60,623 nucleotides of DNA, taken from contig SUXT01000004.1 in the NCBI GenBank assembly GCA_015060835.1, positions 1-60,623 of the forward strand, written 5' to 3'. The DNA comes from Bacteroidales bacterium (GTDB lineage Bacteria > Bacteroidota > Bacteroidia > Bacteroidales > Bacteroidaceae). The notes under the pieces are model-generated. The model was not told where the DNA came from and made no database searches. It was given only the letters and a program-made list of their open reading frames with translations. A program made the translations under genes and the position numbers. The stretch's first letter is position 1. Each line of letters starts with the position of its first letter. Of this stretch, positions 1 to 16,551 are shown piece by piece.

Positions 1-412
1 TCAGTGGTTGGAGTGAAGCACCTTCCATTATGCCGGCTGATGATATTACCATAGATGGTACATTCAGTGCAAACTACTATAGAGTTACTTATGTAGTCGA
101 TGGCGAAGTCTATGCAACCGACAGTATCGCTTGTGGCGACAGCATTGTACTTCTTTCTTCTCCCGAAAAAGAGGGCTACACGTTCAGTGGTTGGGGTGAA
201 GCACCTTCCATTATGCCGGCTGATGATATTACCATAGATGGTACATTCATTGTAAATTACTATAGAGTTACTTATGTAGTCGATGGCGAAGTCTATGCAA
301 CCGACAGCATCGCTTATGGCGACAGCATTGTACTTCTTTCTTCTCCCGAAAAAGAGGGCTACACGTTCAGTGGTTGGGGTGAAGCACCTTCCATTATGCC
401 GGCTGAGGATAT
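1..412 (+). repeat. 183-bp in-frame tandem repeat
   Basis: The units starting at 30, 213 and 396 are nearly identical at DNA level; for example the stretch reading GGTGAAGCACCTTCCATTAT recurs at exact 183-bp spacing. Because 183 is a multiple of three, gain or loss of units keeps the frame and changes only protein length. Confidence 0.93.
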
Positions 413-650
413 TGTGGTAAGTGGCGCGTTTGTTCTTACAGCCATTGATGGTGTTTTAGCAGATGCTATAGTGAATGTAAATGGAAACAGTATTTCAATA
501 TCTGGTGTAAATGGTATGAATCTTAAAATTTATACATTAAATGGAACACTTGTTGAATCTGTTGATAGCTACGATGGTGAGATGATAATCTTAGAGAAAG
601 GTGTTTACATAATTTATGTAGGCAATGATAGAATAAAAATAAATCTCTAA
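1..650 (+). CDS. Secreted repeat protein, C-terminal part (Listeria-Bacteroides repeats)
   Basis: The reading frame is open from the first bases of the window, so the N-terminus lies upstream. The visible part has two full 61-residue repeats (from bases 30 and 213) and the start of a third (396), each with the YRVTYVVDGEVYATDS and GYTFSGWGEAPS motifs. This is the pattern of the Listeria-Bacteroides repeat (InlB B-repeat-like), a small beta fold found in surface proteins. The last ~70 residues contain LKIYTLNGTLVESV and end in KGVYIIYVGNDRIKINL, resembling a short type A sorting domain of type IX secretion, so the product is probably exported through T9SS and anchored at or released from the cell surface. 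The binding target cannot be read from this part. Confidence 0.8.
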   Translation, partial: SGWSEAPSIMPADDITIDGTFSANYYRVTYVVDGEVYATDSIACGDSIVLLSSPEKEGYTFSGWGEAPSIMPADDITIDGTFIVNYYRVTYVVDGEVYATDSIAYGDSIVLLSSPEKEGYTFSGWGEAPSIMPAEDIVVSGAFVLTAIDGVLADAIVNVNGNSISISGVNGMNLKIYTLNGTLVESVDSYDGEMIILEKGVYIIYVGNDRIKINL

Positions 651-1036: not shown

Positions 1037-1747
1037 TCAAATGAATTTCTCGCGTTTTTGCAGGTTAAGCAGTCCCAGCATCATCCACACTACGCTGCCT
1101 ATGGCAAGGAATATGCGGTTTTTCAGCACTGTGCTGCTCCATATTACGGCGTGCACATTTTCGGGCATTGTAAGGGGGTTGAGCGTAATGTCCCACATGC
1201 TGTTCTTGGTGAGGTCGGCCGAAAGGACTGTCGCCACTATTCCGCAGATGATTATGAGTATGGCTGTCGCGTTACCGTTGCGTGTTACAGTGGAGAAGAA
1301 GAATGCAAGGTTGCCCATGAACAGCACCGGATACATCAGTTCGTAGGCTATCTGGAACTGATTGACGGGGTATATGAGGTATTTTGCTATCCATGCGTAC
1401 AACACCAATATGAAGAATATCTCCACATAGATGAGTATGAGCCTTGCCATCCACACCTTGTACTTGTAGTTGGGGATGCCGAAGAGTATCTCCAGTATGC
1501 GGTTGTCCGCATCGTTCTGTATGCCGAATACTGCCGGATAGAATATCAGCAGCAACGACGGGAAGAAGAGAAAACGGTAGATGTGCTCGTCGCCGGGAAC
1601 CTCGCCGCGGTAGGCGCTGTCGAACATGAAGTAGGCGAACAGCGCAAAGGCGGTGAGAAGGAACCATATGAATTTCCCTCCGAAGATAATCTTCATATTG
1701 TATACCGACAGGCGTAAGTAGGCTTTGCAGATATTTATTATATTCAT
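1037..1747 (-). CDS. ABC-2 type transporter permease
   Basis: This 236-residue protein is mostly membrane: about six hydrophobic segments (near residues 25-43, 60-75, 103-122, 138-152, 160-178 and 212-227), the layout of an ABC-2 permease. There is no ATPase motif and no signal peptide. It is the last gene of the leftward export operon, 25 bases after the RND-ABC fusion gene. Since that fusion ends in an ABC ATPase domain, this protein is the natural candidate for its membrane partner, although the fusion also brings its own extra helices. Substrate unknown. Leftward transcription leaves the gene into the repeat element at 744-1021. Confidence 0.75.
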   Translation of the reverse strand: MNIINICKAYLRLSVYNMKIIFGGKFIWFLLTAFALFAYFMFDSAYRGEVPGDEHIYRFLFFPSLLLIFYPAVFGIQNDADNRILEILFGIPNYKYKVWMARLILIYVEIFFILVLYAWIAKYLIYPVNQFQIAYELMYPVLFMGNLAFFFSTVTRNGNATAILIIICGIVATVLSADLTKNSMWDITLNPLTMPENVHAVIWSSTVLKNRIFLAIGSVVWMMLGLLNLQKREKFI

Positions 1748-1772: not shown

Positions 1773-4700
1773 CTATAAATTCTTAAGCAGACAGAGGTAG
1801 GCATCTTCGAGGTTGGCCTCTACCCTTTCGGCATTTTCGTGGGGTTTCTCTATGGAAATGTAACGCACTCTTATCTTGTCGCCGTTCATCATGTTGTTCA
1901 CTATGAGCTTCTCGTCGAGCGTGTCGAACTTCTCGGGCTCGATGTCGAACACCCACACCTTGTTGTCGGCAAACTTTGTCATGTCCGCAGGGTCGCCATA
2001 GTATTTGAGCTCTCCGCGGTTGATTACTGCCACTTGGTTGCAGGAGCTTGCAATGTCCTCGATGATGTGTGTCGAGAAGATGACGATGCGGTCGCGGCTG
2101 AGTTCCACAAGCAGGTTGCGGAAGCGTATGCGCTCGCGCGGATCGAGTCCTGCGGTAGGTTCGTCCACCACAAGTATGCGTGGCAGGTGCAGCAGTATCA
2201 GGGCAATGCCTATGCGCTGCTTCATACCTCCTGAGAAGGAGCCTATCTTGTGGTCTTTCCTCTCGTACATGTGTACGGCTTTAAGCACATATTCGAGTCG
2301 CTCCTTGCGCACAATGGGGTCGGTAATGCCCTTGAGCATTGCCTGGTAGTCGAGAAATTCCCAAGAGGTCATGCTCTCGTACATACCAAATTCCTGAGGC
2401 AGGAAGCCTATGAGACTCTGAAGTTCCTCGCGGTACTCTTTTGTGTTCATTCCGTTTATCCACACTGTTCCGTAGCTCTGCTCCAGAATACCTGTGATGA
2501 TGCGCATCATGGTAGATTTTCCGGCACCGTTGGGGCCGAGCAGACCGAACATACCTGTCTTGATGCTGAACGATACGCCCTTGAGTGCCATGAAGGGGGT
2601 GCGGCGTTTGCCGATGATGGGGATGCTCTTGACGATGGTGAAGAGTGTTCTTCGTGTCTCGGCAAATTTTCCGGTGAGACGTTCGATGTTTATTCTATGT
2701 ACATAGATGTAGTCCGATGTCAGCTTAACCGCTATTCCCAAAGCCCACAGGAAGCCTATCACTATTGTGGCAGGGGTGTTGTCTATGCGGTCCGAAATGA
2801 GCATAAGCGTTGCAAAGGGCAGTGCGAAGAAGACTACCTTGTGCAGTATGTTCACTATCCTCTTGTGGTTGTTGCTCTTGTACTTCAGGTAATCCCTGAC
2901 TTTCTTCCACAGGTCGTAGAACCCGGCGCATACGGCAAACGACAGAGCTATAATCCAGAATTTGTGCTCAAGATAGCAGGTTACCATGTAGAGCAGGAAC
3001 AGGTAGACTACAACCTGCCACAGTACAGGGATAAAATCCCTCAACCTGTGGAATTCGCTGTGCAGTCCCAATCGTTTGCGCAGTTTTATTCCGCTCTCCC
3101 ATTGGCGGGTGAATTTGTTTGACCAGTCGTATATCTTTACAAGATTCTTTATCTCTATTACAATCTCGTCGTCCCTCTTTATTATCTTGTTGTCGGCAAT
3201 GCGTATCGAGGTCTTTATGAAGTATGTGCAACCGGGGATGAGCACTGTGAGCACCATAAGGTAGAGCAGCTGTGTGAAGGCTCCGTATACAGAGAAGTAT
3301 ATATATAGCGCTCCGCAGACAAATATTACCATATGCAACAGGTGCATGGGACGGCTCAGTGAACGATACCATTTGAGTATGTTCTCCAGCGAGAGGTAGA
3401 CGGTGGGTATGAGTATGAGCGTCAGCAGTGCCGAGAACGAAAGACCGCCGATAACGGTTACTGCAAAGGGTGCTCCGATTGCTCCTGCATAGTCTGTGTT
3501 GCCCATGGCCATAGGCAGCAGTGCTATCACAGTGGTGGCTGTGGTGATGAGTATCGGTCGCAGACGAGAATATCCGCTGGTGATGAGTGCCCTGTTGCGG
3601 CTGTAACCCTTGCGACGCAATATGTTGGAGTAGTCAATGAGTATGATACCGTTGTTGACCACCACTCCGAGGAGTATGAGGAATCCGGTCATGGTGTTTG
3701 CGTTCATCAGGCTGTTGCCGGTGATGAAGAGGCCGAGCAACGAACCAATGGCTGCCAAAGGTATTGTGAATAGCAGCACGAACGGTGTGGACACCGACTC
3801 GAACACCGATGCCAATATCATGAATATCAGTATCAGCGATGCAAGGATGAGGAAGTTGAATTCGCTCAACGACTCCTCGGTGCGTATCGTCTCTATCGCA
3901 ATGCCGCTGGGTATGTTGTACCCGGCTATAAGTTCGTCAATCTCGTCGCGGTAGCCTTCGAGTACATCCTTAGGCAGCTCCTCGCTCTGTGTTATTCCAT
4001 AGAATATGGTAATTTCGCGGTCGCGGTTCACACGGCGTATGCTTGCAATGTCGCGTGTCTGCCTGATGGATGCAATCTGTTGCAGTTCGTGCAGACCGCC
4101 ATTGGCATCGGGAATCATCACACGGCGCAGGTCTTCAATGGATTTTTGTATTTTCTTCTGCTTTTTCTCCTCCTCTTCGCTAAGGTCCTCCTTTATTACT
4201 ATTGCATATTCATCGTTGTTCAACTTAAGATAGCTGTTTGTGGTAAGCTCCTTGTTTAGTGAACTCAGTCCGTTGAGAATATTCTGGCGGGTGATGTTGT
4301 ACGATGCAAGCAGTATCGGGTCGAAGATAAGGTGTATCTCGTTGCGACGGCCGGGGTTTGTTGCCCAGTTCCATGCGACAAAGTCCATTTCGCGCAGGTT
4401 GTAGCGTATGTTGTCGGCGACGATGTCCATCATGTCAAAGTCGGAGCCTTTGATAACAATGCGCTCGCTGTTGTCGCCCACGCCCAACACTCTCATGAAG
4501 TTGTTCATGGCTGATGCTGCACCGTTCTGTCCGCCACCCGATGAGCCTGTGGTTATGCGCATCTCCACGTTGGGCAGTTGCGCAAGTTTACTTAGCTCCT
4601 CCACAATGGATGTGATGCTTCGGTTCTTATGGTAGTCCTCCTTCAGCACCATTGTTATTGAGGCTGCGTCCTCCTGTATGCGGCAGATAAGTTCCTCCTT

Positions 4701-6458
4701 TTCGGGGAAACTGTCGAGTTTCTCTTCGAGTATGGATACCATTCTGTCCGAATATTCCAGTGTGCTCGACGAGGGCATTGTCAGTGTCATGTTCACCCTA
4801 TCGGTGTTAACGGGCTTGCTGCTGTCGCTGTTGGTGGAGAGGACCATCATCCACAATGAAACAAGCACCACAATGCAACCGGTGATACAGATGGCGGGCT
4901 TGCGAAGGCTGGTCTTCAGCAGCACTGTGTATATCTGTATGGGGCGTTGGTTAATCGACAGTTTGTCGTGGAATACGCTTCCTCCCTTGTTCTTTTTCAG
5001 CATCACGTATGTGGCCATAGGCACGAAGAGCAGTGCCACAGTAAGCGAGAATACCAGCGTTGCAATGATGGAGATTCCGATGTGTTCGCCTATCAGTTTG
5101 ATGAATACCTCTTCGGAAAAGAGGAAGGGCAGGAATACGGTGATTGTTGTCAGAGTGGCTGCGAGGATTGATTTCCACACTTCGCGCGTGCCTTGCGTTA
5201 CGGCAACTTCGGCACTCTTGCCATGCGTGAATAGTCGGTAGATATTTTCGAGCACCACAATGCTGTTGTCGAGCAGCATACCTATTGCCAGTGCCATACC
5301 TATGAGCGTGAGGCTGTTTATCGAAATGTTGTAGTAGTAGAACAGATTGAATGCAGCCAATATTGATATAGGCATCGAAAGGGCTATGAAGAATACCAGA
5401 TGTATGTTGCGCAGGAAGAACCACAGTACGGCAATGGCAAGCAGGGCACCGCTTATTGCAAGTTCCACCACCTGGTCGATGTTCTTCTCGATTTCGTCGG
5501 CGGAGTTTGACTGCACCACAAGCTCGATCTCCTGTGCCTGGAATTCTTGGTTGAGCGCCTCGATGCGCTGCTTTGTCCTGTCCGACAATTCCAGCAGGTT
5601 CACCTGAGCATCGTTGACGAGGGCTACAGATATTGCCTCCTTGCCATTTACGCGGCTCAGTGTGGTCTCCTCCTTCATGTCGAAGAATACGGTTGCAATG
5701 TCCTTCAGGTAAATGGGGCCGGGGGCCACAATCACATTCTCTATCTGCGAAATGTGGTCGTAGTTTGCGTCAAGATGTACATAGTAGCGTATGTCGGGCG
5801 AATTTACATAGCCGAGGAATGTGCGTTCCTGATTGTATTGTGCAAGAATGTCCCTTATGTGGGCAGGGGTGAGCTTCAGTGCCGAGAGTGCTGCTTCGTC
5901 GAAGCGTATCTCTATGGCCTTTTCGCGTCCGCCGTATACGTTTACGGCAGCAACGCCGTCGACATTTTCAAGTTGCGGCTTTATATCCTTGTCTACGATG
6001 GCACGCAGTCTGTCTACTCCGCCGGTGCCACGCACCTGTATGGTCATGAAGTTGTTGTTGACTCCATTGACATTTGCCCTCTCTATGTTCACCGTAAAGC
6101 CGTCGGGCAGCGAGGGGAGTATGCTGTTTATCCTCTCCTGCAGCTTCAAGGTGATGTATTTGAGGTTAATACCCTTCTTGAAGTCGACGCGTATCTCGCC
6201 CTGTCTGTTCCTTGCAGTGGCCTCGATGTTCTCTACGCCCTCCACGGTGCTGATAACGCCTTCGAGCGGGATTACGGCCTTTGACTCCATGTATGCGGGG
6301 GTAACATCCTTGTCCGAGGATACCCTGACAAAAAGCATGGGCAGCTCAGCATTGGGCAGCATCTCCACTTTCAGCTGTTTATAGGAGACATATCCCAACA
6401 GGGAGATGGCTATGAACAGCATGCATATTGTTATCTTTCGTTTTATAATGAAGTTCAT
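1773..6458 (-). CDS. RND efflux pump fused to an ABC ATPase (split nucleotide-binding domain)
   Basis: A 1,561-residue inner-membrane protein. Residues 1-1025 are a full AcrB-type RND pump: TM1 at ~9-28, two large periplasmic loops (~35-335 and ~545-865), and GMLLDNSIVVLENI in TM4 with Asp397 as the likely proton-relay acid. Two extra membrane segments follow (~1038-1080). Residues 1098-1110 (EIVIEIKNLVKIY) look like the first strand of an ABC domain. Four hydrophobic segments then intervene (~1143-1163, 1167-1184, 1203-1221, 1231-1250) before the domain resumes at ALKGVSFSI (~1291). All ABC motifs follow: Walker A GPNGAGKST 1308-1316, Q1355, SGGMKQ 1409-1414, VDEP with D1432/E1433, and H1464. 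An even helix count puts the ATPase in the cytoplasm. The frame is unbroken. It lies 16 bases after the other RND gene. Each half is clear; substrate and coupling are unknown. Confidence 0.85.
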   Translation of the reverse strand: MNFIIKRKITICMLFIAISLLGYVSYKQLKVEMLPNAELPMLFVRVSSDKDVTPAYMESKAVIPLEGVISTVEGVENIEATARNRQGEIRVDFKKGINLKYITLKLQERINSILPSLPDGFTVNIERANVNGVNNNFMTIQVRGTGGVDRLRAIVDKDIKPQLENVDGVAAVNVYGGREKAIEIRFDEAALSALKLTPAHIRDILAQYNQERTFLGYVNSPDIRYYVHLDANYDHISQIENVIVAPGPIYLKDIATVFFDMKEETTLSRVNGKEAISVALVNDAQVNLLELSDRTKQRIEALNQEFQAQEIELVVQSNSADEIEKNIDQVVELAISGALLAIAVLWFFLRNIHLVFFIALSMPISILAAFNLFYYYNISINSLTLIGMALAIGMLLDNSIVVLENIYRLFTHGKSAEVAVTQGTREVWKSILAATLTTITVFLPFLFSEEVFIKLIGEHIGISIIATLVFSLTVALLFVPMATYVMLKKNKGGSVFHDKLSINQRPIQIYTVLLKTSLRKPAICITGCIVVLVSLWMMVLSTNSDSSKPVNTDRVNMTLTMPSSSTLEYSDRMVSILEEKLDSFPEKEELICRIQEDAASITMVLKEDYHKNRSITSIVEELSKLAQLPNVEMRITTGSSGGGQNGAASAMNNFMRVLGVGDNSERIVIKGSDFDMMDIVADNIRYNLREMDFVAWNWATNPGRRNEIHLIFDPILLASYNITRQNILNGLSSLNKELTTNSYLKLNNDEYAIVIKEDLSEEEEKKQKKIQKSIEDLRRVMIPDANGGLHELQQIASIRQTRDIASIRRVNRDREITIFYGITQSEELPKDVLEGYRDEIDELIAGYNIPSGIAIETIRTEESLSEFNFLILASLILIFMILASVFESVSTPFVLLFTIPLAAIGSLLGLFITGNSLMNANTMTGFLILLGVVVNNGIILIDYSNILRRKGYSRNRALITSGYSRLRPILITTATTVIALLPMAMGNTDYAGAIGAPFAVTVIGGLSFSALLTLILIPTVYLSLENILKWYRSLSRPMHLLHMVIFVCGALYIYFSVYGAFTQLLYLMVLTVLIPGCTYFIKTSIRIADNKIIKRDDEIVIEIKNLVKIYDWSNKFTRQWESGIKLRKRLGLHSEFHRLRDFIPVLWQVVVYLFLLYMVTCYLEHKFWIIALSFAVCAGFYDLWKKVRDYLKYKSNNHKRIVNILHKVVFFALPFATLMLISDRIDNTPATIVIGFLWALGIAVKLTSDYIYVHRINIERLTGKFAETRRTLFTIVKSIPIIGKRRTPFMALKGVSFSIKTGMFGLLGPNGAGKSTMMRIITGILEQSYGTVWINGMNTKEYREELQSLIGFLPQEFGMYESMTSWEFLDYQAMLKGITDPIVRKERLEYVLKAVHMYERKDHKIGSFSGGMKQRIGIALILLHLPRILVVDEPTAGLDPRERIRFRNLLVELSRDRIVIFSTHIIEDIASSCNQVAVINRGELKYYGDPADMTKFADNKVWVFDIEPEKFDTLDEKLIVNNMMNGDKIRVRYISIEKPHENAERVEANLEDAYLCLLKNL

Positions 6459-6473: not shown

Positions 6474-9400
6474 TTATCTTTTGAACGATGCTTTCATTTG
6501 CTCAAAAAGGTAATATACACAGGGTATTACAACGAGGCTGAGCAGGGTTGAGGTTACAAGACCGCCTATTACGGCTATTGCCATAGGTGCACGCAACGAT
6601 GCGCCGTCGCCGAAGGCTATTGCCATGGGCAACAGCGACAGGATGGTGGTGATGCTTGTCATAAGGATGGGCCTTATACGTTGCTGTGCAGCCTCCACAA
6701 TGGCCTCTGTGAGCGACATTCCTGCCTCTTTCAGCTGGTTTATTCTGTCGACGAGTATGATGGAGCTGTTTACTGCAATACCCGAAAGCATTATTATACC
6801 GATTACACCCATAATATTTATCGTGGTGCCGGTGATGAAGAAGAGCAGTATTGCGCCTACAAGTGCCAACGGAATTGTAAGCAGGATGGTGAAGGGGTGC
6901 AACAATGACTCGAACTGCGATGCCATAACCATGTACACGAGCACTACAGAGAGTACAAGTGCAAATATCAGTCCTCCCATAGACTCCTCGCGTTTCTCCT
7001 CTTCGCCGGTGATGTTTATATTGTAGTTTGCGGGAAGCTCTATGGCAGCGAGGGCTGTGCGCAACTCCTCGGATACTTGGCTGAGTGTGTAACCCTCTTC
7101 GATATTGGCCGTTACCTTTGCTATGCGGCTCTGGTTGCGGCGGAATATCTCTTTCGGTGCCACATCGCGGCGTATGTCGGCAAGTTCGGCAAGGCGGAAC
7201 TGCTTGTTGTTGTGTGTGATTACAATGTCGTTGAGCTGCGAAAGTGGTATTTCGGGCACTTTAATCATAATGTCGCGCATTTCGCCCTTGTAGTCCATCT
7301 GTCCTGCATTCTTGCCCGACAGCTGTTCCTGTATCTGTGTTACGATGGTCGTTACGTTCAGGTTGTTCATGCCGGCGAGTGCGCGGTTTACGGTGATGAC
7401 CATTTCGGGTGCTCCGTTCTCTATGGAATTGCTCACATTGAAGAGCCCCGGAACACTTGTCGCAATCTCTGTTGCCTTTGCGGTAATGTCGGCAATTTCG
7501 TCAAGTTCCTCGCCCTTTACCTCTATCACAATGGGTGCATCCTCGCTGCCCATGAGCGAGCCGAGCGAGTTGCGGTCCTGCATGAACGAGAGTTCGAGAC
7601 CTTCGATGTCGGCTGTATTTGCGATGAGCTCCTCCATAAGTTCTTCGGGAGCGTATCGTGAATCGGGCGAGAGTATAACCTTCAGCGTAGCTGTGTTGTC
7701 GCCCGAGAATATGTTGCTGCCCGAACTGTAACCCGGTCCTATGTGGCTGTATACGGTGCAGAGCGAATCCTGTGTGATAGAGTAGATCAGATTCTCTATT
7801 GCCTCGGCTGTGGATGCTGTACGTTCAAGGCGTGTGCCCTCCTGCAATTTTATCTCCACGCTGAAGGAGTTGTTGTCGGCCTTAGGCATAAATTCGGCTC
7901 CAATGAAGGGTAGCAGGCAGTATGTTCCTACAACCAGCAGCAGTGATGCTCCTACCACTGCCCAGCGGCGCTTCAGAATAGTGCGCAACAGATTGGAGTA
8001 ACCCTTTATTCTTACGGACGAATCGGTCTGTATGGCTTTCTTGTCCTTCTCTTTGTTCTTGCGGAACATTCTTTCGTAGAGTGTGGGTATCACAAGTATG
8101 GCCACAAAGAGCGACGATACGAGTGAGAATGTTACCGTCCATGCCTGATCTTTGAAAAGTTCGCCCGATGCTCCGTGTAGGTAGACGATGGGCAGGAACA
8201 CCACAATGGTGGTGAGGGTGGATGCTGTTACTGCTCCACCAACCTCGCTTGCGCCCTGCACGACAGCCTCTTTTACCGACATGCCTTTTTCTTGGTTTCT
8301 AAAGATGCTCTCTATCACCACTATGGCATTGTCTACAAGCATACCTGCACCCAATGCGAGACCGCCGAGTGTCATTATGTTCAGCGTAAGGTCGCCGAAG
8401 AACATAAGGTTGAAAGTGGCGATTATGGATATAGGCATTGCCAATGAAATTACGAGTGTAACCTTCAGACGGCGCAGGAACAGATAGAGCACAATCACTG
8501 CCAACAGCACACCCAAAATGGCGCTGTCCTTAACCTCGCCAATGGCGCTGTTGATGAATGTTCCCTGATTGCTCACAACCTCGAACTTGTAGCCGGGCAG
8601 TGCCTTTTCAATCTCTGCGAATCGCTTTACAACACCTTCCACTGTCTTTACGGTGTTGTGCTGCATCTCCTTGTAAACCGATAGTCCTATGCAACGACGG
8701 CCGTTTATGCGCACGATATTTTCGGGGCGCTCATTCTCAAATGAAATTTCGGCAAGCTCTTTCAAGTATATGGGTGCCATATCCTCGCCCGAGGCATTCT
8801 GTGCAGCAGCATTTGCCGTACCGTTAGCGGCGGTCTCCGTCCTTTTGTAGCTTACGATTATGTTGCCGAAGTCCTCTTCGCTTTTCAGAATGTTCACTCC
8901 GCTGACAATATACTGCTCGCCCATCTCCACCACGCGACCGCCTGCGAGACGCTGGTTCTCCTCCTCAATCTGCTTGCTTATGGCATCAATGGTGAGGTTG
9001 TATGCCGCCAGTTTATAGGGGTCGGTCTTAATCACAAGGTTGCTCACTTCGCCGCCTGTCAGTGTAACATCGGCCACACCCTCCACGCGGATAAGCTCGT
9101 TGCGTATGTACGAGTCGGCAATCTTGCGCAGTTCGGCCATGTTGGTTATATCGTCGTGCGACATTCCCACAAGGACTATCGGGTCGGTGTTGGGGTTGTT
9201 CTGTGTAATTTCGAGCTTTGTAAGCTTCTCGTCCTGTGCTATGGTGTTCATAGCCTTCTGCAGGTCGAGGAAAGCCTCGTCCATGTCCTTGTTCCATGTG
9301 TACTCAACAGTCATCTGAGCCATTCCCGCCTTTATTACAGAGGATACGGTCATGACGTCGCGCTGGCGTATGGCCATCGATTCCATTCTCTTCACAAAGA

Positions 9401-9587
9401 GTTTTTCAATCTCTTCGGGCGGGCGTTCTCCGGCGGTAATGTCTACATACAGCTTAGGATTGTTCAGGTCGGGAAGAAGGTCGACGCTGAGTTTGTCGTA
9501 TGATATTTTGCCAAGCAACATTATACCCAATACGGCCATTAGGATGGTTATAGGGTTGTTGACGGCGAATGTGATTATTTTCTTCAT
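6474..9587 (-). CDS. RND family efflux pump, inner-membrane permease
   Basis: At 1,037 residues this is the standard AcrB/MdtB size. It has TM1 (~8-27), a first periplasmic loop, TM2-6 with GAGMLVDNAIVVIESI (proton-relay Asp), a second periplasmic loop and TM7-12 ending in LVVIPCVYYLFEQMKASFKR. It should exchange protons for drugs, bile acids, lipids or other amphiphiles as a trimer docked to the adaptor and outer-membrane channel encoded just upstream. It is 16 bases before the RND-ABC fusion gene and 60 bases after the adaptor gene, all on one strand. The fusion's RND half and this protein could form homotrimers, or a mixed trimer as in MdtB2C; the sequence does not say which. Substrate unknown. 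Confidence 0.92.
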   Translation of the reverse strand: MKKIITFAVNNPITILMAVLGIMLLGKISYDKLSVDLLPDLNNPKLYVDITAGERPPEEIEKLFVKRMESMAIRQRDVMTVSSVIKAGMAQMTVEYTWNKDMDEAFLDLQKAMNTIAQDEKLTKLEITQNNPNTDPIVLVGMSHDDITNMAELRKIADSYIRNELIRVEGVADVTLTGGEVSNLVIKTDPYKLAAYNLTIDAISKQIEEENQRLAGGRVVEMGEQYIVSGVNILKSEEDFGNIIVSYKRTETAANGTANAAAQNASGEDMAPIYLKELAEISFENERPENIVRINGRRCIGLSVYKEMQHNTVKTVEGVVKRFAEIEKALPGYKFEVVSNQGTFINSAIGEVKDSAILGVLLAVIVLYLFLRRLKVTLVISLAMPISIIATFNLMFFGDLTLNIMTLGGLALGAGMLVDNAIVVIESIFRNQEKGMSVKEAVVQGASEVGGAVTASTLTTIVVFLPIVYLHGASGELFKDQAWTVTFSLVSSLFVAILVIPTLYERMFRKNKEKDKKAIQTDSSVRIKGYSNLLRTILKRRWAVVGASLLLVVGTYCLLPFIGAEFMPKADNNSFSVEIKLQEGTRLERTASTAEAIENLIYSITQDSLCTVYSHIGPGYSSGSNIFSGDNTATLKVILSPDSRYAPEELMEELIANTADIEGLELSFMQDRNSLGSLMGSEDAPIVIEVKGEELDEIADITAKATEIATSVPGLFNVSNSIENGAPEMVITVNRALAGMNNLNVTTIVTQIQEQLSGKNAGQMDYKGEMRDIMIKVPEIPLSQLNDIVITHNNKQFRLAELADIRRDVAPKEIFRRNQSRIAKVTANIEEGYTLSQVSEELRTALAAIELPANYNINITGEEEKREESMGGLIFALVLSVVLVYMVMASQFESLLHPFTILLTIPLALVGAILLFFITGTTINIMGVIGIIMLSGIAVNSSIILVDRINQLKEAGMSLTEAIVEAAQQRIRPILMTSITTILSLLPMAIAFGDGASLRAPMAIAVIGGLVTSTLLSLVVIPCVYYLFEQMKASFKR

Positions 9588-9646: not shown

Positions 9647-10705
9647 CTATTTCTGTATCTTTATCTTACTGTTGTCGCGCAGTGTCTCGTATCCTCTGAC
9701 AATCAGCTGGTCCTCTACCTTAAGGCCGTTGAGTACCTCTATGTTGTCGTTGTCCTCGATACCGGTCTTTATGTCGCGCACCTTTGCAAAGCCCTTCTCG
9801 GCGATATATACATATTTGCGGTTGCGGTTGCTCATTACAATCTCCTTGGGAATTACAATGGTATTCACAGCCTTCTTCACCACAATGTCGGCCTTGACGA
9901 ACATACCGGGACGCAACTTCATCTTCTCGTTGTCTATGACGAGCTTGCCTTTGAATGTGCGTGTTTCGGGGCTGATGGCAGGCGAAAGTTCGCTGACAGT
10001 GGCTTTTACTGTGTCGTTGGGAAGTGTGTAGTGTGTGATGAATACCTCCTGTCCTGTCTTTACTTCGTTGATTGCACTTTCGGGGAGGTTAATCTCCATC
10101 ACCATCTTAGAATAGCTCATGATCGAGACGATGGATGTTCCCGATGCCAACTGCACCGAGGGAGTGTAGTGGGGCAGATTGACGATTACACCGTCGAAGG
10201 GTGCTTTTATGCTCATCTTTTCGAGGTTGAGCTTGGCATTCTCGTAGCTGTATTTTGCGTTGGTGATGGCAACTTCGGCATTACGCAACTGGCTCAGTGT
10301 TACACCGCCCTTTTCGTATATGGCACGGTTCTTTATCTCCTCCTGTTCGGCAATTTCGAGGCTCAGACGCTTGGAGTCTATTGCAATCTCATTTTCATAC
10401 TCCTTGTTCTCGAACCTAACGATTGTCTCGCCTGCCTTCACCTGATCGCCGAGCTTGTAGGGAGCACCTGTGCGGGGATTCCTCTGCAATTTGTACTTAC
10501 CGGCTACTTCGGACTTCAGCTCTACCTCTGAGTTTGAGAGCGCTGTACCCGATGTGCTGTTATATTTGCTGATGCTGCTTTTGCTGACCTCTGTAACTGA
10601 TACGGGTGATGCAATCTCCGACGAGCCTCCCTGCTGGCGTTTTTCGCACGCTGTCAGTGCCAATGTAGTTGCTGCTATCAATAGTATGGTTCTATTTATC
10701 TTCAT
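9647..10705 (-). CDS. RND periplasmic adaptor (membrane fusion protein), lipoprotein
   Basis: This 352-residue protein starts with a lipoprotein signal (MKINRTILLIAATTLALTAC, lipid on Cys20). The rest follows the AcrA/HlyD plan: a barrel-sandwich half with GTALSNSEVELKSEVAGKY, a helical hairpin around residues 100-160 (EQEEIKNRAIYEKGGVTLSQL), the returning lipoyl half (IKAPFDGVIVNLPHYT), then beta-barrel and membrane-proximal parts. It would bridge the RND pump to the TolC-type channel across the periplasm. It sits between tolC-like and RND genes, with 38 and 59 bases between them, as in typical tripartite operons. It is the only adaptor here, so both RND proteins may share it. Confidence 0.92.
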   Translation of the reverse strand: MKINRTILLIAATTLALTACEKRQQGGSSEIASPVSVTEVSKSSISKYNSTSGTALSNSEVELKSEVAGKYKLQRNPRTGAPYKLGDQVKAGETIVRFENKEYENEIAIDSKRLSLEIAEQEEIKNRAIYEKGGVTLSQLRNAEVAITNAKYSYENAKLNLEKMSIKAPFDGVIVNLPHYTPSVQLASGTSIVSIMSYSKMVMEINLPESAINEVKTGQEVFITHYTLPNDTVKATVSELSPAISPETRTFKGKLVIDNEKMKLRPGMFVKADIVVKKAVNTIVIPKEIVMSNRNRKYVYIAEKGFAKVRDIKTGIEDNDNIEVLNGLKVEDQLIVRGYETLRDNSKIKIQK

Positions 10706-10743: not shown

Positions 10744-12237
10744 TTATTTTTCTGATGCGGGTACAACGCTCATGGGTATCAGCGCCTTGTTGTTCTCGAA
10801 GTCGTAGAGTGTCAGTATCTTCATGTTGAGCAACTCTTTCTTGTATTCGATGATGGTGGATACATACGACATTTTCTTGTTTGATAACTGTGTCTGGAAC
10901 TGGTTCATCTCCATACCTGTGAGCTCTCCGTTGCGGTATCTTTCGGCGTTGAGATCATAGGTGAGCTGTGCGTTCTTCACACTCTGTTCGGCTATTGAAA
11001 TTTGTGTGAGCAGGTTGTTGAGGTTGCGGTAGCTCTTGCGGATTGCAATCTCTATGGCTTTGCGCTCTTCGTCTGTTTCGAGGTTGTGCATCTCTATTGC
11101 AATCTCCTGTGCCTTGATGCGTGCCTTTCTTTCGCCCCAGTCGAAGATGGGTACGTTGAACGAGAGGGATACGCGGGGATTGTTGGTGGGGGTGCGGTAG
11201 ATGTCGTTGAGCCTTTCGTTGTCGCCGGTGATACCTATCGACATCGACAATTCGCCGTTGAAGCTGTTGCTCTCCTTTATCTGTTTCATCTGCATGTCGA
11301 GCTCTGTGCGCGAAATTTCGCGTTGCTTAAGTTCGAGACGCGAGCTGAGTGCGTTTGATATTGCTTTCCCGAGGTCTACGCTCACGGGCTTAGCCTCCAC
11401 CTGTGCGATAATCTCCAGGTCTGTAGAGAGGTCTATGCCGAGGATTTTCTTAAAATCGTCTTTGGCATTTTCGAGCGCAACGACGCGGTTGTCGACTGTG
11501 CTTCGGGCTGTTGCGAGGTTAAGTTCGGCCTGATAGAGTTCGTCCTTTGTCGACAGGTCGGCGTCTACTTTGTTCTTTATCACATTGTAGTTAGCCTCGG
11601 CATCCTTTAGCTCGGCTTTGCTTATTTCGAGGTTGTTCTGTGCTGTGTATACGTTGTAGAACTGGTTGGTGATGGAGTTTTCGAGGTTGAGACGGCGCAG
11701 CGAGTAGTTGATAAGCGCATTCTCGTAGTCAAGCTCTATGCTCTTGAGGTCGAACTTTATCTGGTTGTAGCGGAACAGAGGCTGTGTGATGCTCAGATAG
11801 AGGTCGTTGCTGAAGGCCCTGTTGTCGTTGTCTACTCCGCCCGTAATACTCGATTTGTTGTTCTGCCAGCCGAATTTGTTGTTGAGCGATACGGTGGCTC
11901 CTGTCCAGATGATGGGCTGCGAAATGCTGAATGTTCCCGAAGTTGAGAATGATTCATTGGTGTACCACTCCGAGAGGCGATTCTCGAAGTATCGGTTTCT
12001 GCTGTAGCTGACGGGATTGAGCGTCAGTGAAAATCTCGATTTCAGCGATGCTCTTTGGGCATCGAGGCTGAATTTGTAGCGCCGCAGGTTCATCAGCGCT
12101 GTCTGCAGTTCGGGACTGTTCTCTATGCTGTAGTTGAGCGCATCATCGAGCGTCATGCTTATTTGTGCACCGGCGTTCATGCTCAGCAGGCATAGGAGTG
12201 ATGCTATCCACATCCATCTGTTCTTTTGTCGTAGCAT
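10744..12237 (-). CDS. TolC-family outer-membrane efflux protein
   Basis: A 497-residue protein with an N-terminal signal sequence (WIASLLCLLSMNAGA) and two repeated halves rich in long amphipathic helices (for example around residues 215-260 and 390-450), separated by strand segments with alternating hydrophobic residues. The start ISMTLDDALNYSIENSPELQ is the characteristic TolC/OEP opening. It would form the trimeric channel that lets the pumps of this operon discharge outside the cell. It is 27 bases after the ABC permease/peptidase-like gene and 38 bases before the adaptor gene. As the only outer-membrane channel in the operon it may serve the RND and ABC parts alike. Confidence 0.92.
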   Translation of the reverse strand: MLRQKNRWMWIASLLCLLSMNAGAQISMTLDDALNYSIENSPELQTALMNLRRYKFSLDAQRASLKSRFSLTLNPVSYSRNRYFENRLSEWYTNESFSTSGTFSISQPIIWTGATVSLNNKFGWQNNKSSITGGVDNDNRAFSNDLYLSITQPLFRYNQIKFDLKSIELDYENALINYSLRRLNLENSITNQFYNVYTAQNNLEISKAELKDAEANYNVIKNKVDADLSTKDELYQAELNLATARSTVDNRVVALENAKDDFKKILGIDLSTDLEIIAQVEAKPVSVDLGKAISNALSSRLELKQREISRTELDMQMKQIKESNSFNGELSMSIGITGDNERLNDIYRTPTNNPRVSLSFNVPIFDWGERKARIKAQEIAIEMHNLETDEERKAIEIAIRKSYRNLNNLLTQISIAEQSVKNAQLTYDLNAERYRNGELTGMEMNQFQTQLSNKKMSYVSTIIEYKKELLNMKILTLYDFENNKALIPMSVVPASEK

Positions 12238-12264: not shown

Positions 12265-15200
12265 TTATTCTTCTTTTCTCTTTATAAGTTTTACGGCATC
12301 GGCTGTTATGTATCGCAGTCGTGTCTTATTGGTAAGGGTTACATACATTGTGTCGCAGTTGGCCTCGAATGTTCCGAGCATTGCCCAACCGTTGTCGGCG
12401 CGACGCATATTCAGTTCGTTTACCTCCTTGTTCTCGCCTGTCTCTACTATGAAATTGTACATACGGCGACCTCTGTTGTGCCATCCGCCCCAATGGAGTT
12501 CCATTGGTTTGCGAACGTAGTAGTATAGTTCGTAGCGTCCGGGTTCGGGGATGGGGATTTTCCATTTTGCATATTCCTCGCCGCCGCCTGAGCGTATCAC
12601 GGCTGCCGAGCGTATGGATTTTCCGTAGAATCCGCCGTCTGTGGTCAATGTCCAGCGCATGGGCGGGTTCCACTCCCTGAAGCCTGAGTATTTGAAGTCC
12701 TCGTCAATGCTCTTCTGCTTTATCCATTCGTTGAGAAGTCCTGAGGGCGGGGGTACGGATAGTTCGAAGAATTGTTCTCCATCCTCGTTGTCTACGATTA
12801 TTTCGTCCTTTTCGAGCAAGAAATCCGATGACAAGGGGTATTCGCCTTCGGGGGTAAGTGTCTTGACGGTCTCAACCTTTCCGCTGTGTGTGGCTATGTG
12901 CATGGGCAGATTCTTGGAGAATAGTGCTGTGCAGGCAAACATATTGGGTGTCTCTTCCCAATGGGTTATTATGCGTTTGGTCTCTTTGGGGCCGAAACTG
13001 ATTACCCATTCGTTGGGCTTCTTCTCGCCATCGAATGTCTGGTTGTCGCCGTTGCGTGTCCAGAAGATGAGCTTCATGTTCACATTGCCGGGCTTGTCGG
13101 ATATGTTGGAGATTACAATGTCGCCCTGGAAAACATCTTTCTTGTTGGTGGTTACCTTTGTTACGCTGGGGGTACCGAAAAGGAATTCTGCCACTTCTGT
13201 GGGCTTGTCCCACTCCTTGAGATTGCTGCGAAGGTCGCTTTTTGTCAACCGTCCCATTGTATCGAGCATTGTTTCGAATGAGAGGTTCTGGAATGCGTGT
13301 GCCTTTACGTAGTTGAAAAGCGTGTCGCGGAAAGCTGACACTCCCAATGCCTTTTCGGCATCGAGGAAGAGCTTTTTACCCTGTACCTCTATGATGTTGT
13401 TCATAAGGTTGCGCAGTTCAGTGTCTTTAAGCAACTCCTTGAACGAGCGTTCCTGCAACAGCAACACGCATTTTTCCTCGTTGCTTAGTCCGTTGACATT
13501 GCGTTGCAAGAAGTTGTTCCACCATGGCATTCTGTTGAGACGTATCTCTATGAGTCTGTTTGCCACCGACCACTCCGATGAGTATATATTGTACTTGAAG
13601 TTGTACATCTGAGGGAATATGTAGTAGGGGCTCTCTTCTATGGTTATCGACCTTCGTCCCATGCGTCCCTCGTCGAACTTCACACCACCATTCTGGTCGA
13701 GCAGCAGTCCTTGGAAATGTTGGAACACCTCAGCCTGTATCTGGGTGTTGGTGAGTATTTTGCCGCCGTGGTTCTTATTGTGTTCGCGTCGGTCTTCGCG
13801 CCATTTTATGTGCCACCTGAAGTCGAATTGCCACAGCCCGAAACCTCTTTCGGGGAGGAATAGCATTTCGGGCTGCTGGCGCTCCTGTGCGCGTGTCCAT
13901 GTGCGAGAGAAACTTGCAAAATGCACGGGTACCTCTACAAACGAGAATCGCTTGAAGGGGTAGGGCAGCTCCACCTCCTTTTCAATGTTGCGGCGCATAT
14001 CCTTTATGAGTTTGGGCAATGTGTCCTGCAATGAGTCGAAGCTCTGTGTGAAGTAGTCGTGTCCTTCGAGGTACCACACAGAGTAGAGTGTGCTGTCCGA
14101 CTCTACCGACAGGGTGCGGTAGTCGCCTATGAGCAGCGAGAGTGATTGCAGGGGGTATTCGAGTGTGAAATGCGTGGTCAGCGAGTCTTCGCTCAGTTTT
14201 ATGTTGCCTTGCGACAGGGGTGTCTTTCCTGCGTTTGGCGTTACGTTCATGCTGAAGTGTGTGAAGTAGTTCTGCTGCCAGTCGGGGCTTTCGTCGCTGT
14301 AGCATACGCCGGGACGGGGGTACCAATAGCTTTCGGGGGTGAGCATGGTGAATTCTGTATCCTGAAAGGCATAGCGCTTGCCCATCTTGTATCTGCTGAA
14401 GTCGCCACTCTCCACAAGCAACTCCTCGGGAATATCAAGGTAACAGATGCGTTCGTCTATCGTACCGTTGTATTTAAGCGTAAAACTGATGGTGTCCTCA
14501 GTCGTCTTCTCTTCGGGGAATGTTACTTTTACAAGATGCTCTTCGCGTTCCACAGCCAATGGTGTGCCCCCCAGAACAGCCTCTGTAACCACGTATCCGG
14601 GGTTGAGGGTAAATGTGAATTGTTGGGATTTTTTTGTGGGGCGACCGGTTATTCTTGTCTCGAAGAAGAGCTTTTCGCCCTGCTGCACCACATCTATATT
14701 GCAGCTGTCGGTTACTATCTTGGGGTTATTTACATTCTTGTTGTTCAGTGTTATCAGGTTGGTTCTGTAATTGTCCTTTACAGTGTAGTTGCTCACGTGC
14801 AGATAGCCCAAAAACATTGTTGCCATGAAGATAACGACAGCAAATGTTCCCCACGGTACCAGCGCATAGTGCGAATTGGGTAGACGGCGGAACATCAGTA
14901 TGCTGAACAGGATGAAACTGAATCCCATGAGCAAATACATCGTACGGTGTATGATGAGCGTGGGAAGGTCGGCAAAGCCTGTTATGGTCGACTCCATCAG
15001 CGGGATATTGTAGCACATGTAGTCGAACAGATAGTAGAATTTGTCGCCTATGTAGAAGATTGTCAGGCCAATGTAACCTAATAGTATTACAAATGTAAGT
15101 GCTTGATTCTTAATAATCAACATCAGCAGTGTCGAGAGGCCTATGATGTATATGAGCGTAGGCAGATTTATCAGAAAGAAGTATTTGAAGAAGCTGCCTA

Positions 15201-15615
15201 TGTCTACTGCCGTGCCCAGCTTGGTGTATCCGCAGATGGTGCCTATTATTATCACAATCAGGTTGAGAAGCAGGAATACGCGTATGGTTCCCCACATTTT
15301 TCCCAACAGATATTCGGCATTGCTCAGCGGGCGCACATAGAATATTTCGGATGTGTCGAGCTGTTTGTCGCGTTTGAGGTATTCCGATGCAAGGAATATC
15401 GATACTATTGCCTGCCCTATGTTGAATGTGAGCATCAGCGAGTAGCCGAGCAACGTGGGGATACTCTCCACATGGCGCGACTCGTTGAGTGTTGCAATGG
15501 CAGTGAAGATGGTTGCAATCACCGTTAGGGTGGCAAACACTTTGAAGAACCAGCTTCTGTAAAGAAGTTTTGATTCGTATTTCGAGACGGATTGTATGTT
15601 TTTCAGAAAGAGCAT
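12265..15615 (-). CDS. ABC permease with periplasmic M1-peptidase-like and golvesin-type domains
   Basis: A 1,116-residue protein in three parts. Residues ~24-273 hold seven hydrophobic segments (24-42, 54-77, 108-130, 141-168, 172-195, 223-241, 251-273), an ABC-2 permease core ending on the periplasmic side. Residues ~280-880 resemble M1 aminopeptidase folds found on Bacteroidota ABC permeases, but there is no HExxH: the region where it would be expected reads AEVFQHFQG (628-636), so zinc-peptidase activity is unlikely. The last ~150 residues (GRYELYYYVRKPMELHWGG, then ITADAVKLIK) look like a golvesin C-terminal-like beta domain, usually carbohydrate- or surface-binding. The stop is 27 bases before the tolC-like gene and the start 42 bases after the ABC ATPase gene, its likely partner. 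The domain calls for the middle and end are inferences. Confidence 0.78.
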   Translation of the reverse strand: MLFLKNIQSVSKYESKLLYRSWFFKVFATLTVIATIFTAIATLNESRHVESIPTLLGYSLMLTFNIGQAIVSIFLASEYLKRDKQLDTSEIFYVRPLSNAEYLLGKMWGTIRVFLLLNLIVIIIGTICGYTKLGTAVDIGSFFKYFFLINLPTLIYIIGLSTLLMLIIKNQALTFVILLGYIGLTIFYIGDKFYYLFDYMCYNIPLMESTITGFADLPTLIIHRTMYLLMGFSFILFSILMFRRLPNSHYALVPWGTFAVVIFMATMFLGYLHVSNYTVKDNYRTNLITLNNKNVNNPKIVTDSCNIDVVQQGEKLFFETRITGRPTKKSQQFTFTLNPGYVVTEAVLGGTPLAVEREEHLVKVTFPEEKTTEDTISFTLKYNGTIDERICYLDIPEELLVESGDFSRYKMGKRYAFQDTEFTMLTPESYWYPRPGVCYSDESPDWQQNYFTHFSMNVTPNAGKTPLSQGNIKLSEDSLTTHFTLEYPLQSLSLLIGDYRTLSVESDSTLYSVWYLEGHDYFTQSFDSLQDTLPKLIKDMRRNIEKEVELPYPFKRFSFVEVPVHFASFSRTWTRAQERQQPEMLFLPERGFGLWQFDFRWHIKWREDRREHNKNHGGKILTNTQIQAEVFQHFQGLLLDQNGGVKFDEGRMGRRSITIEESPYYIFPQMYNFKYNIYSSEWSVANRLIEIRLNRMPWWNNFLQRNVNGLSNEEKCVLLLQERSFKELLKDTELRNLMNNIIEVQGKKLFLDAEKALGVSAFRDTLFNYVKAHAFQNLSFETMLDTMGRLTKSDLRSNLKEWDKPTEVAEFLFGTPSVTKVTTNKKDVFQGDIVISNISDKPGNVNMKLIFWTRNGDNQTFDGEKKPNEWVISFGPKETKRIITHWEETPNMFACTALFSKNLPMHIATHSGKVETVKTLTPEGEYPLSSDFLLEKDEIIVDNEDGEQFFELSVPPPSGLLNEWIKQKSIDEDFKYSGFREWNPPMRWTLTTDGGFYGKSIRSAAVIRSGGGEEYAKWKIPIPEPGRYELYYYVRKPMELHWGGWHNRGRRMYNFIVETGENKEVNELNMRRADNGWAMLGTFEANCDTMYVTLTNKTRLRYITADAVKLIKRKEE

Positions 15616-15657: not shown

Positions 15658-16551
15658 TTAGTCGTTCATCCACAGGTTAAGGCTTCTTTCCATGAAGTAA
15701 ACGTATGCATGTTCGAGGTTGGGCGGCATATTCTCGGCCTTGTATTCATCGAATTTGTCAGCAACCACCTGTATGTCCCACATATCCCCGTTGGGTATTG
15801 TGGCAATGATGGGGTATTTCCGGTTTATGGCCTTGTAGTCTTCGTCATTCACGCACAGACGCCACACCTTGCCCTCGGCACGTTTGAGCATCTCTTCGGG
15901 TGAACCTCTGAATGAAATTTCGCCCTTGTTGAGCAGCGCCATGTTGTTGCACGAACTTGATACGTCGCCCACAATGTGCGTAGAGAGGATGATGGTGGTG
16001 TCGTTGCCGCTCACATGCGTCAGCAGGTTGCGGAAGCGTATACGCTCTTCGGGGTCGAGTCCGGTTGTCGGTTCATCGACTATAATCACTTTCGGCTCGT
16101 GGATAAGTGCCTGTGCAATGCCCAAGCGACGTTTCATACCTCCCGACAAGTTCGCTGCATAGCGCTCGCGCACCTCGTAGAGTCCCACCTTTTCGAGCAT
16201 GTCGGCAACCGCTTTCTTGCGGCTCTTGCCGTCGTTCATGCCCGACAGACGTGCTGCGTAGTCAAGGAACTCTGCCACCTTGTACTTTGCAAAGAAGCGG
16301 AAGTCCTGCGGCAGATAGCCCAATATGCGTCTTACCTCCCTGCGCTCTTTAAGCAGATTACAGCCGTACATCTCAATTTCACCTGATGATGGCTCCATGA
16401 GTGCCACAAGTATGCGCATGAGTGTGGACTTGCCGGCGCCATTGGGCCCCAACAAGCCGAACATACCCGATGGTATCTCCAAATTTATATCCTTAAGGGC
16501 ATGATTGCCATTGGGGTATACTTTATTCAGATTCTTTATTTTTATCGACAT
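15658..16551 (-). CDS. ABC transporter ATP-binding protein
   Basis: This 297-residue ATPase has every expected motif: Walker A GPNGAGKST (35-43), Q82 in GYLPQDF, LSGGM (135-139), Walker B with D159/E160 and H192 in STHI. Residues ~225-297 are a C-terminal extension. It opens the seven-gene export operon and is followed 42 bases later by the permease it most likely drives. Its sequence is close to the ATPase half of the RND-ABC fusion: both have GMFGLLGPNGAGKST, RIRFRNLL, a THI switch and SSCN, and both end with LEDAY or LEHAY near the C-terminus, pointing to a duplication inside the operon. There is no insertion between strand 1 and ALKDINLEI here, unlike in the fusion. Confidence 0.93.
   Translation of the reverse strand: MSIKIKNLNKVYPNGNHALKDINLEIPSGMFGLLGPNGAGKSTLMRILVALMEPSSGEIEMYGCNLLKERREVRRILGYLPQDFRFFAKYKVAEFLDYAARLSGMNDGKSRKKAVADMLEKVGLYEVRERYAANLSGGMKRRLGIAQALIHEPKVIIVDEPTTGLDPEERIRFRNLLTHVSGNDTTIILSTHIVGDVSSSCNNMALLNKGEISFRGSPEEMLKRAEGKVWRLCVNDEDYKAINRKYPIIATIPNGDMWDIQVVADKFDEYKAENMPPNLEHAYVYFMERSLNLWMND

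Follow-up and report, generated by a model that had tools for sequence, protein, structure and literature searches.

A predicted RND pump–ABC ATPase fusion with a membrane insert in its ATPase domain, conserved across many Bacteroidota

Architecture of the fusion gene

In the window (the whole stretch of 60 623 nt that was analysed) we observed a minus-strand frame starting with ATG at position 6458, ending with a stop codon at 1773–1775 and having no internal stop in 1561 aa. The original prediction had seen here an unbroken frame with a complete RND pump, two extra helices and an ABC ATPase with all motifs, leaving the strand unstated; the frame itself, Pfam searches and hydropathy confirmed this description. 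The RND permease family ACR_tran (PF00873) matched in full length at residues 2–1024 (E-value 7e-149, 497.9 bits versus the gathering score of 28), and residues 1292–1436 belong to the ABC ATPase family ABC_tran (PF00005; E-value 2e-26, 94 bits versus the cut-off of 25). Among the matches listed (25 of 193 models), the best NCBIfam multidrug RND model for the fusion scored 459.8 bits, below its cut-off of 1250.

By hydropathy the two helices following the pump lie at residues ∼1040–1058 and 1063–1085. The segment proposed as the first ABC strand, EIVIEIKNLVKIY (residues 1098–1110), is separated from the next strand, ‘ALKGVSFSI’ (beginning at residue 1291), by 180 residues with four hydrophobic peaks, which agrees with the predicted distance of ∼180 residues and four helices; in the stand-alone ATPase of the same locus, for which a gap of a few residues had been claimed, we found ∼5 residues. 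The features of the locus are collected in Table 1.

Table 1. Coordinates of the fusion gene, its parts and the neighbouring genes in the window
Feature	Position	Strand	Residues or description	Basis
RND–ABC fusion gene	1773..6458	-	1561 aa	Frame, Pfam, orthologues
RND (ACR_tran) pump module	3384..6458	-	1–1025	
Two extra hydrophobic helices	3204..3341	-	1040–1085	Hydropathy
First ABC ATPase strand with A-loop Tyr1110	3129..3167	-	1098–1110	Profile test, conservation
Insert between first and second ABC strands	2589..3128	-	1111–1290; 180 residues, four hydrophobic peaks	
Insert helix 1	2979..3035	-	1142–1160	Hydropathy
Insert helix 2	2907..2963	-	1166–1184	Hydropathy
Insert helix 3	2793..2849	-	1204–1222	Hydropathy
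Insert helix 4	2715..2771	-	1230–1248	Hydropathy
Remaining ABC ATPase	1776..2588	-	1291–1561; Walker A 1308–1316, Q1355, SGGMKQR 1409–1415, D1432/E1433, H1464	
Stand-alone ABC ATPase	15658..16551	-	Closest to the fused ATPase within this genome	
Large protein	12265..15615	-	ABC-2-like membrane part, M1-peptidase-like part, Golvesin_C	Pfam
TolC-family outer-membrane channel (OEP)	10744..12237	-		Pfam
Periplasmic adaptor (RND_mfp)	9647..10705	-	RND efflux kind	Domain match
Second RND pump, without ATPase	6474..9587	-	1037 aa	Pfam; conserved neighbour
Membrane protein	1037..1747	-	236 aa, six hydrophobic peaks; directly downstream of the fusion	

Operon and neighbouring genes

The fusion is the sixth of seven genes that lie on one strand with spacing of 15 to 59 bases, in the order stand-alone ABC ATPase, large protein (ABC-2-like/M1-like/Golvesin_C), TolC, adaptor, second RND pump, fusion and 236-residue membrane protein. 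The last six of these genes were found in this order in 59 of 79 loci with the fusion (for the choice of loci see the next section). Fourteen of the remaining 20 loci reach only a part of the operon (L027, L048, L053, L062, L070, L083, L094, L039, L045, L073, L075, L051, L078 and L093), five have broken genes (L019, fusion; L071, fusion and TolC; L072, TolC; L079, RND; L084, ABC-2/M1-like gene and TolC) and one, L058, has no ABC-2/M1-like gene that could be recognised. Twelve more divergent loci keep the operon order as far as their sequence reaches, with the stand-alone ATPase present in four of them (L121–L124).

In the large protein only Golvesin_C scored above the Pfam cut-off, while the ABC-2 and M1 matches were below; Golvesin_C was also the only domain found in its counterpart from L124. 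The HExxH zinc motif was absent from the large protein and likewise from five relatives inspected for it, of which one is partial. Such a protein may be a dead peptidase serving as a periplasmic scaffold. As it is a conserved neighbour in the operon, and as the best PDB sequence matches of the fused ATPase are ABCA lipid transporters, one could think of an envelope maturation device in which the fusion, together with the M1-like/Golvesin_C protein, exports or extracts a lipid or lipoprotein and not a drug. Against this, the adaptor belongs to the RND efflux kind and the channel to the OEP family; we regard this reading as very unlikely.

The 236-residue protein was recognised, whole or cut, directly downstream of the fusion in 78 of 79 loci; in the other one, L093, the contig ends 100 bases past the fusion. 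Neither this protein nor the seven-gene operon was part of the original prediction. A profile of this protein matched 4 of 198 genomes of the phylum, and all four also have the fusion. Six hydrophobic peaks are seen in the window protein and six to nine over 40 family members. Pfam matches were few: ABC2_membrane_3 in three of the 40 members (best E-value 0.004), ABC2_membrane_2 in one and the unrelated Acyl_transf_3 in four (best E-value 0.0009). A PDB search gave no solved relatives, and hhalign comparison with the other candidate permease (12265–15615) gave no significant match (E-value 0.23). The protein is likely to be an ABC-2-type permease acting as partner of the ATPase, with weak support for its identity as such.

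At the window edge (30–650, plus strand) we also saw a gene for a protein with near-identical Listeria–Bacteroides repeats (Flg_new).

Orthologues and their integrity

In named records 309 stretches were matched, 187 of them encoding a relative; the best 80 of the 187 were taken and represent 79 distinct loci. The whole fusion was found as a single frame in 70 loci, was cut by contig ends in seven and was broken in two, so the claim that the RND and ABC parts are joined in one polypeptide holds, and orthologues encoded as two genes, which would have spoken against it, did not appear. One of the broken copies (L019) has a frameshift in the RND part. The other (L071, a Parabacteroides draft) has a frameshift near residue 250 as well as an in-frame stop exactly at the junction of the RND part and the helices, next to a broken TolC gene; either a degraded copy or a poor assembly would account for it. 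Named records with the fusion include Bacteroides faecis, B. faecichinchillae, B. bouchesdurhonensis, Parabacteroides gordonii, P. goldsteinii, P. faecis, Tannerella and Proteiniphilum; some of the records are from isolates, e.g. those of B. faecis and P. gordonii. With Bacteroides, Parabacteroides and Tannerella among the records, some from isolates, the family is open to study in culturable commensals.

In genome samples, which overlap each other, a profile of the insert matched 53 of 393 genomes of the order (one a weak chance match), 8 of 395 of the class (three weak chance matches), 6 of 395 of the phylum, 23 of 301 of the family and 38 of 118 genomes of the family of G632. The weak matches, in G528, G831, G1048 and G1111 (E-values from 7e-5 to 1e-3), were judged on inspection to be due to chance. 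A search of Bacteroidales for RND–ABC chains of the same length had been suggested as a check; short frames aside, the strong insert-profile matches lie in frames of 1515–1670 aa. In the order sample there were eight short frames: five run off a contig end, as do those of G047 and G058, and the one in G517 has the coordinates of L048 with its contig-end cut. In the sample from the family of G632 there were four: the 541 aa frame of G1517 coincides in coordinates with the stop-containing copy L071; contig C297 of G1491 fits L094, cut by a contig end; the contigs of G1465 and G1479, 4123 and 3355 bases long, could not hold the whole gene. Split orthologues were rejected on these insert-profile matches. 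Outside Bacteroidota the analysis covered a plasmid collection. Among the 5000 best records of a tblastn search in plasmids, the single record with at least 80% coverage consisted of two pieces over separately annotated genes.

The window comes from a draft genome of 158 contigs, and the copy in L071 is interrupted by a stop codon at the junction, which could raise the suspicion that two genes were joined by a sequencing or assembly error. Against this stand the 70 whole single frames among the 79 loci, isolates included, and the frames of 1618 aa with the fusion in G1466 and G1483, each listed with one contig. The orthologues refute an artefact, which we consider practically excluded; the predicted RND–ABC fusion is conserved across many Bacteroidota.

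Residues of the two motors

We aligned the fusions to solved RND pumps. The proton relay of AcrB consists of two Asp in TM4, a Lys in TM10 and an Arg in TM11. The TM4 residue Asp397 is kept in 66 of 67 aligned fusions, and at the place of the second TM4 Asp there is Asn in 45 fusions and Ser in 22, i.e. one Asp only is kept in TM4. Arg965 and Arg967 of TM11 are kept in all 72 aligned fusions, with Arg965 facing Arg971 of AcrB; Asn935 takes the place of AcrB Lys940 (72/72). In the second RND pump of the operon we saw by eye likewise one Asp, and Asn there.

On the ATPase side, the A-loop Tyr1110, Walker Lys1314, Gln1355, Asp1432, Glu1433 and His1464 are invariant in all 73 fusions aligned, and the ABC signature was found in the window protein and in the 12 divergent loci. 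Judging by these positions, both motors keep key residues. A fused domain which merely senses ATP or positions the pump, doing little mechanical work, would fit with the fusion being a tether by construction; still, seven ATPase positions counted were invariant in all 73 aligned sequences, and the ATPase from the second strand on was the best conserved of ten segments measured (mean entropy of 0.51 in an alignment of 78 fusions). Such a regulatory or scaffolding role looks quite improbable to us.

First strand and insert

To the original prediction the segment at residues 1098–1110 was the first strand of the ATPase sheet. From 14 ABC sequences (10 other ABC genes of this genome, the stand-alone ATPase of the operon and its three counterparts from other genomes) we derived a first-strand profile of ten columns and slid it over the 282 residues preceding Walker A in 85 fusions, one of which, holding X, was dropped. 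The top-scoring window was the N[LV]VK[IV]Y segment in all 84 fusions scored. In the window protein its score was 19.6; when this region was shuffled, the best window scored 5.3 on average, and none of 5000 shuffles reached 19.6; by sequence, the segment looks like an ATPase strand. In the alignment of 78 fusions the mean entropy was 0.79 for the first strand versus 1.75 and 1.53 for its flanks and 1.16 for the RND part. The 79 loci were retrieved with patterns from both ends of the insert, thus these ends are favoured in that set; the 12 divergent loci, obtained in a profile search without patterns, carry the same first strand. The distance between strands 1 and 2 was 176–183 residues in 73 of 73 aligned fusions and 113–229 in 83 scored, rather than the usual ABC spacing of a few residues. 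An ATPase sheet with its first strand parted from the rest by a membrane insert is supported as a prediction from sequence.

Hydropathy counts in 83 fusions (two of 85 were skipped) gave two pre-strand helices in every case, and four insert peaks in 76 fusions, three in five, two in one and one in one. With a stricter cut, the window sequence retained three of the four insert helices and the family mean only two. The mean numbers of K+R were 3.0, 12.4, 5.0 and 10.6 in the predicted cytoplasmic loops and 0.2, 0.3 and 1.5 in the predicted periplasmic ones; this positive-inside bias places the first strand and the ATPase in the cytoplasm. The lowest peak counts were in L115 and L116 (L115 has a single insert peak above the cut), where by alignment the insert is 113 residues long and lacks the first helix pair, with the strand and the ATPase kept. 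The loss of the first two helices together fits both ends of the insert being on the same side of the membrane. A Pfam search of the insert sequence gave nothing useful. The idea that the ATPase is anchored in the membrane through its own fold is partly supported by these predictions. A membrane domain within the first hairpin of an ATPase would be a striking case of insertion tolerance and of membrane coupling of ATPase domains.

Two of the loci, L117 and L118, have extra hydrophilic stretches, ∼30–50 residues in length, in the insert between the first ABC strand and the first insert helix, G/S/D-rich in L118. Separately, a weak match was seen in an ABC ATPase of L134 (3300–4574), which looks to be of polysaccharide kind and has an insertion of ∼40 residues at the same site between strands 1 and 2.

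Origin of the fusion

The stand-alone ATPase has the fused ATPase as its nearest relative in this genome (43%, E-value 8e-73; next E-value 2e-24). In a tree of 29 ATPase rows, with a long-branch warning among the other rows, the fused and stand-alone ATPases grouped together (100/98), and within this clade the 15 fused ones stood on one side (94/94). The RND parts of 11 fusions also made a single clade (100/100) apart from the 11 second-RND proteins. The simplest reading of these trees would be one origin of the fusion along with duplication of the ATPase inside the operon.

Comparison with known systems

The original prediction knew of no described example; in open-licence PubMed Central we likewise found no description of an RND–ABC fusion chain, and none of the papers listed there dealt with such a fusion by title. 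With tripartite pumps of the RND (HAE) type the fusion shares the complete ACR_tran domain, the adaptor and TolC in the same operon, with MdtB as the best solved match; unlike them, it adds C-terminal helices and an ABC ATPase and has a single TM4 Asp and Asn935 for AcrB Lys940. MdtABC/MuxABC form a mixed RND trimer, MdtB2C1 (PMC7015380). Two paralogous RND genes with one adaptor are present here too, so that the gene content would fit such a system; however, the paralogues here are far apart (28–31%) and one of them carries an ATPase.

The ABC-2-type ATPases DrrA, GldA and ABCA resemble the fused ATPase in having all motifs (GldA and DrrA models matched below cut-offs; in the PDB, ABCA1/ABCA4 matched), but in the fusion the first strand is cut off by a hydrophobic insert of ∼180 residues and the domain stands behind an RND pump. 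In Wzt and TarH the connection between the first two ATPase strands is extended by a gate helix, which lies on the cytosolic side at the membrane (PMC6379404). The site of insertion is the same; still, the gate helix is one cytosolic helix, whereas the fusion has ∼180 residues with four predicted membrane helices and falls outside the gate-helix group. The MacAB-TolC system also combines an ABC ATPase with an adaptor and TolC. The ATPase of MacB is joined to its own permease (PMC8277102), and in the fusion the ATPase is joined to an RND pump.

Possible mode of action

Proton-driven and ATP-driven exporters have been treated as separate superfamilies; with a conserved chain joining the two, their working in series and the ratio between them become testable. 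Read from the genes, an RND pump, two helices and a putative insert-split ABC ATPase are in one conserved chain, alongside an adaptor, TolC, a second RND pump, a second ATPase and two membrane proteins. We propose, with about an even chance of being right, that the seven genes of the operon make up one composite exporter of the envelope, with the fusion as core subunit, in which the ATPase drives an ABC-2-type exporter tethered to the RND pump, the two working in series. The fused ATPase would not drive the RND pump directly; it would pair with a second ATPase domain, that of another fusion copy or the stand-alone ATPase (15658–16551), and the pair would power an ABC-2-type permease, namely the 236-residue protein (1037–1747) and/or the membrane part of the large protein (12265–15615). 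The ABC half would carry an amphiphilic substrate into the inner membrane on its periplasmic side, from where the tethered RND half (the fusion and the second RND pump, possibly as a mixed trimer like MdtB2C1) would take it to the adaptor and TolC. The insert would hold the ATPase beside the RND helices and fix its position under the permease. The fusion may be a two-engine export machine.

The series exporter is supported by the anatomy and motifs, the conservation of both motors, the strand profile, the charge bias, the shortened inserts of L115 and L116, the gene order, the co-occurrence of genes and the ATPase clade. It is weakened by the weak ABC-2 identity of the 236-residue protein, by the family mean with only two clear insert helices and by the stop in L071.

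One could instead imagine a direct dual-energy pump, in which ATP binding and hydrolysis pulls the RND helices via the extra helices and the insert, in one cycle with proton flow and with no separate ABC permease. The extra helices and the insert do form a link between the end of the RND module and the ATPase, both motors are kept and the ABC-2 identity of the neighbouring protein is weak. ABC ATPases, however, normally have a cognate permease to act on, and the gene beside the fusion codes for a conserved membrane protein; moreover, RND pumps are trimers while ABC ATPases are dimers. We find such a pump unlikely. Within the series exporter, three pump subunits would be reconciled with two ATPases if a mixed trimer held a single fusion, whose ATPase pairs with the stand-alone one. 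A bolder proposal, which we hold as doubtful, is a new transporter category: ATP hydrolysis and proton flow would be mechanically coupled in one cycle, the ATPase sheet would close only once a membrane domain of four helices had been threaded in between strands 1 and 2, and the pump would be a mixed trimer with one fusion per pump and its ATPase paired with the stand-alone one.

In B. thetaiotaomicron, BT0297-0300 is a bile-induced RND cluster (PMC11078008) in which BT0297 has been named SilC (PMC4380924) and BT0299 is an RND permease (PMC10434189); BT0297-0300 could be the same operon as that of the fusion. A second, distant adaptor–RND pair was seen after the operon in five Bacteroides records (L029, L030, L032, L046 and L050).
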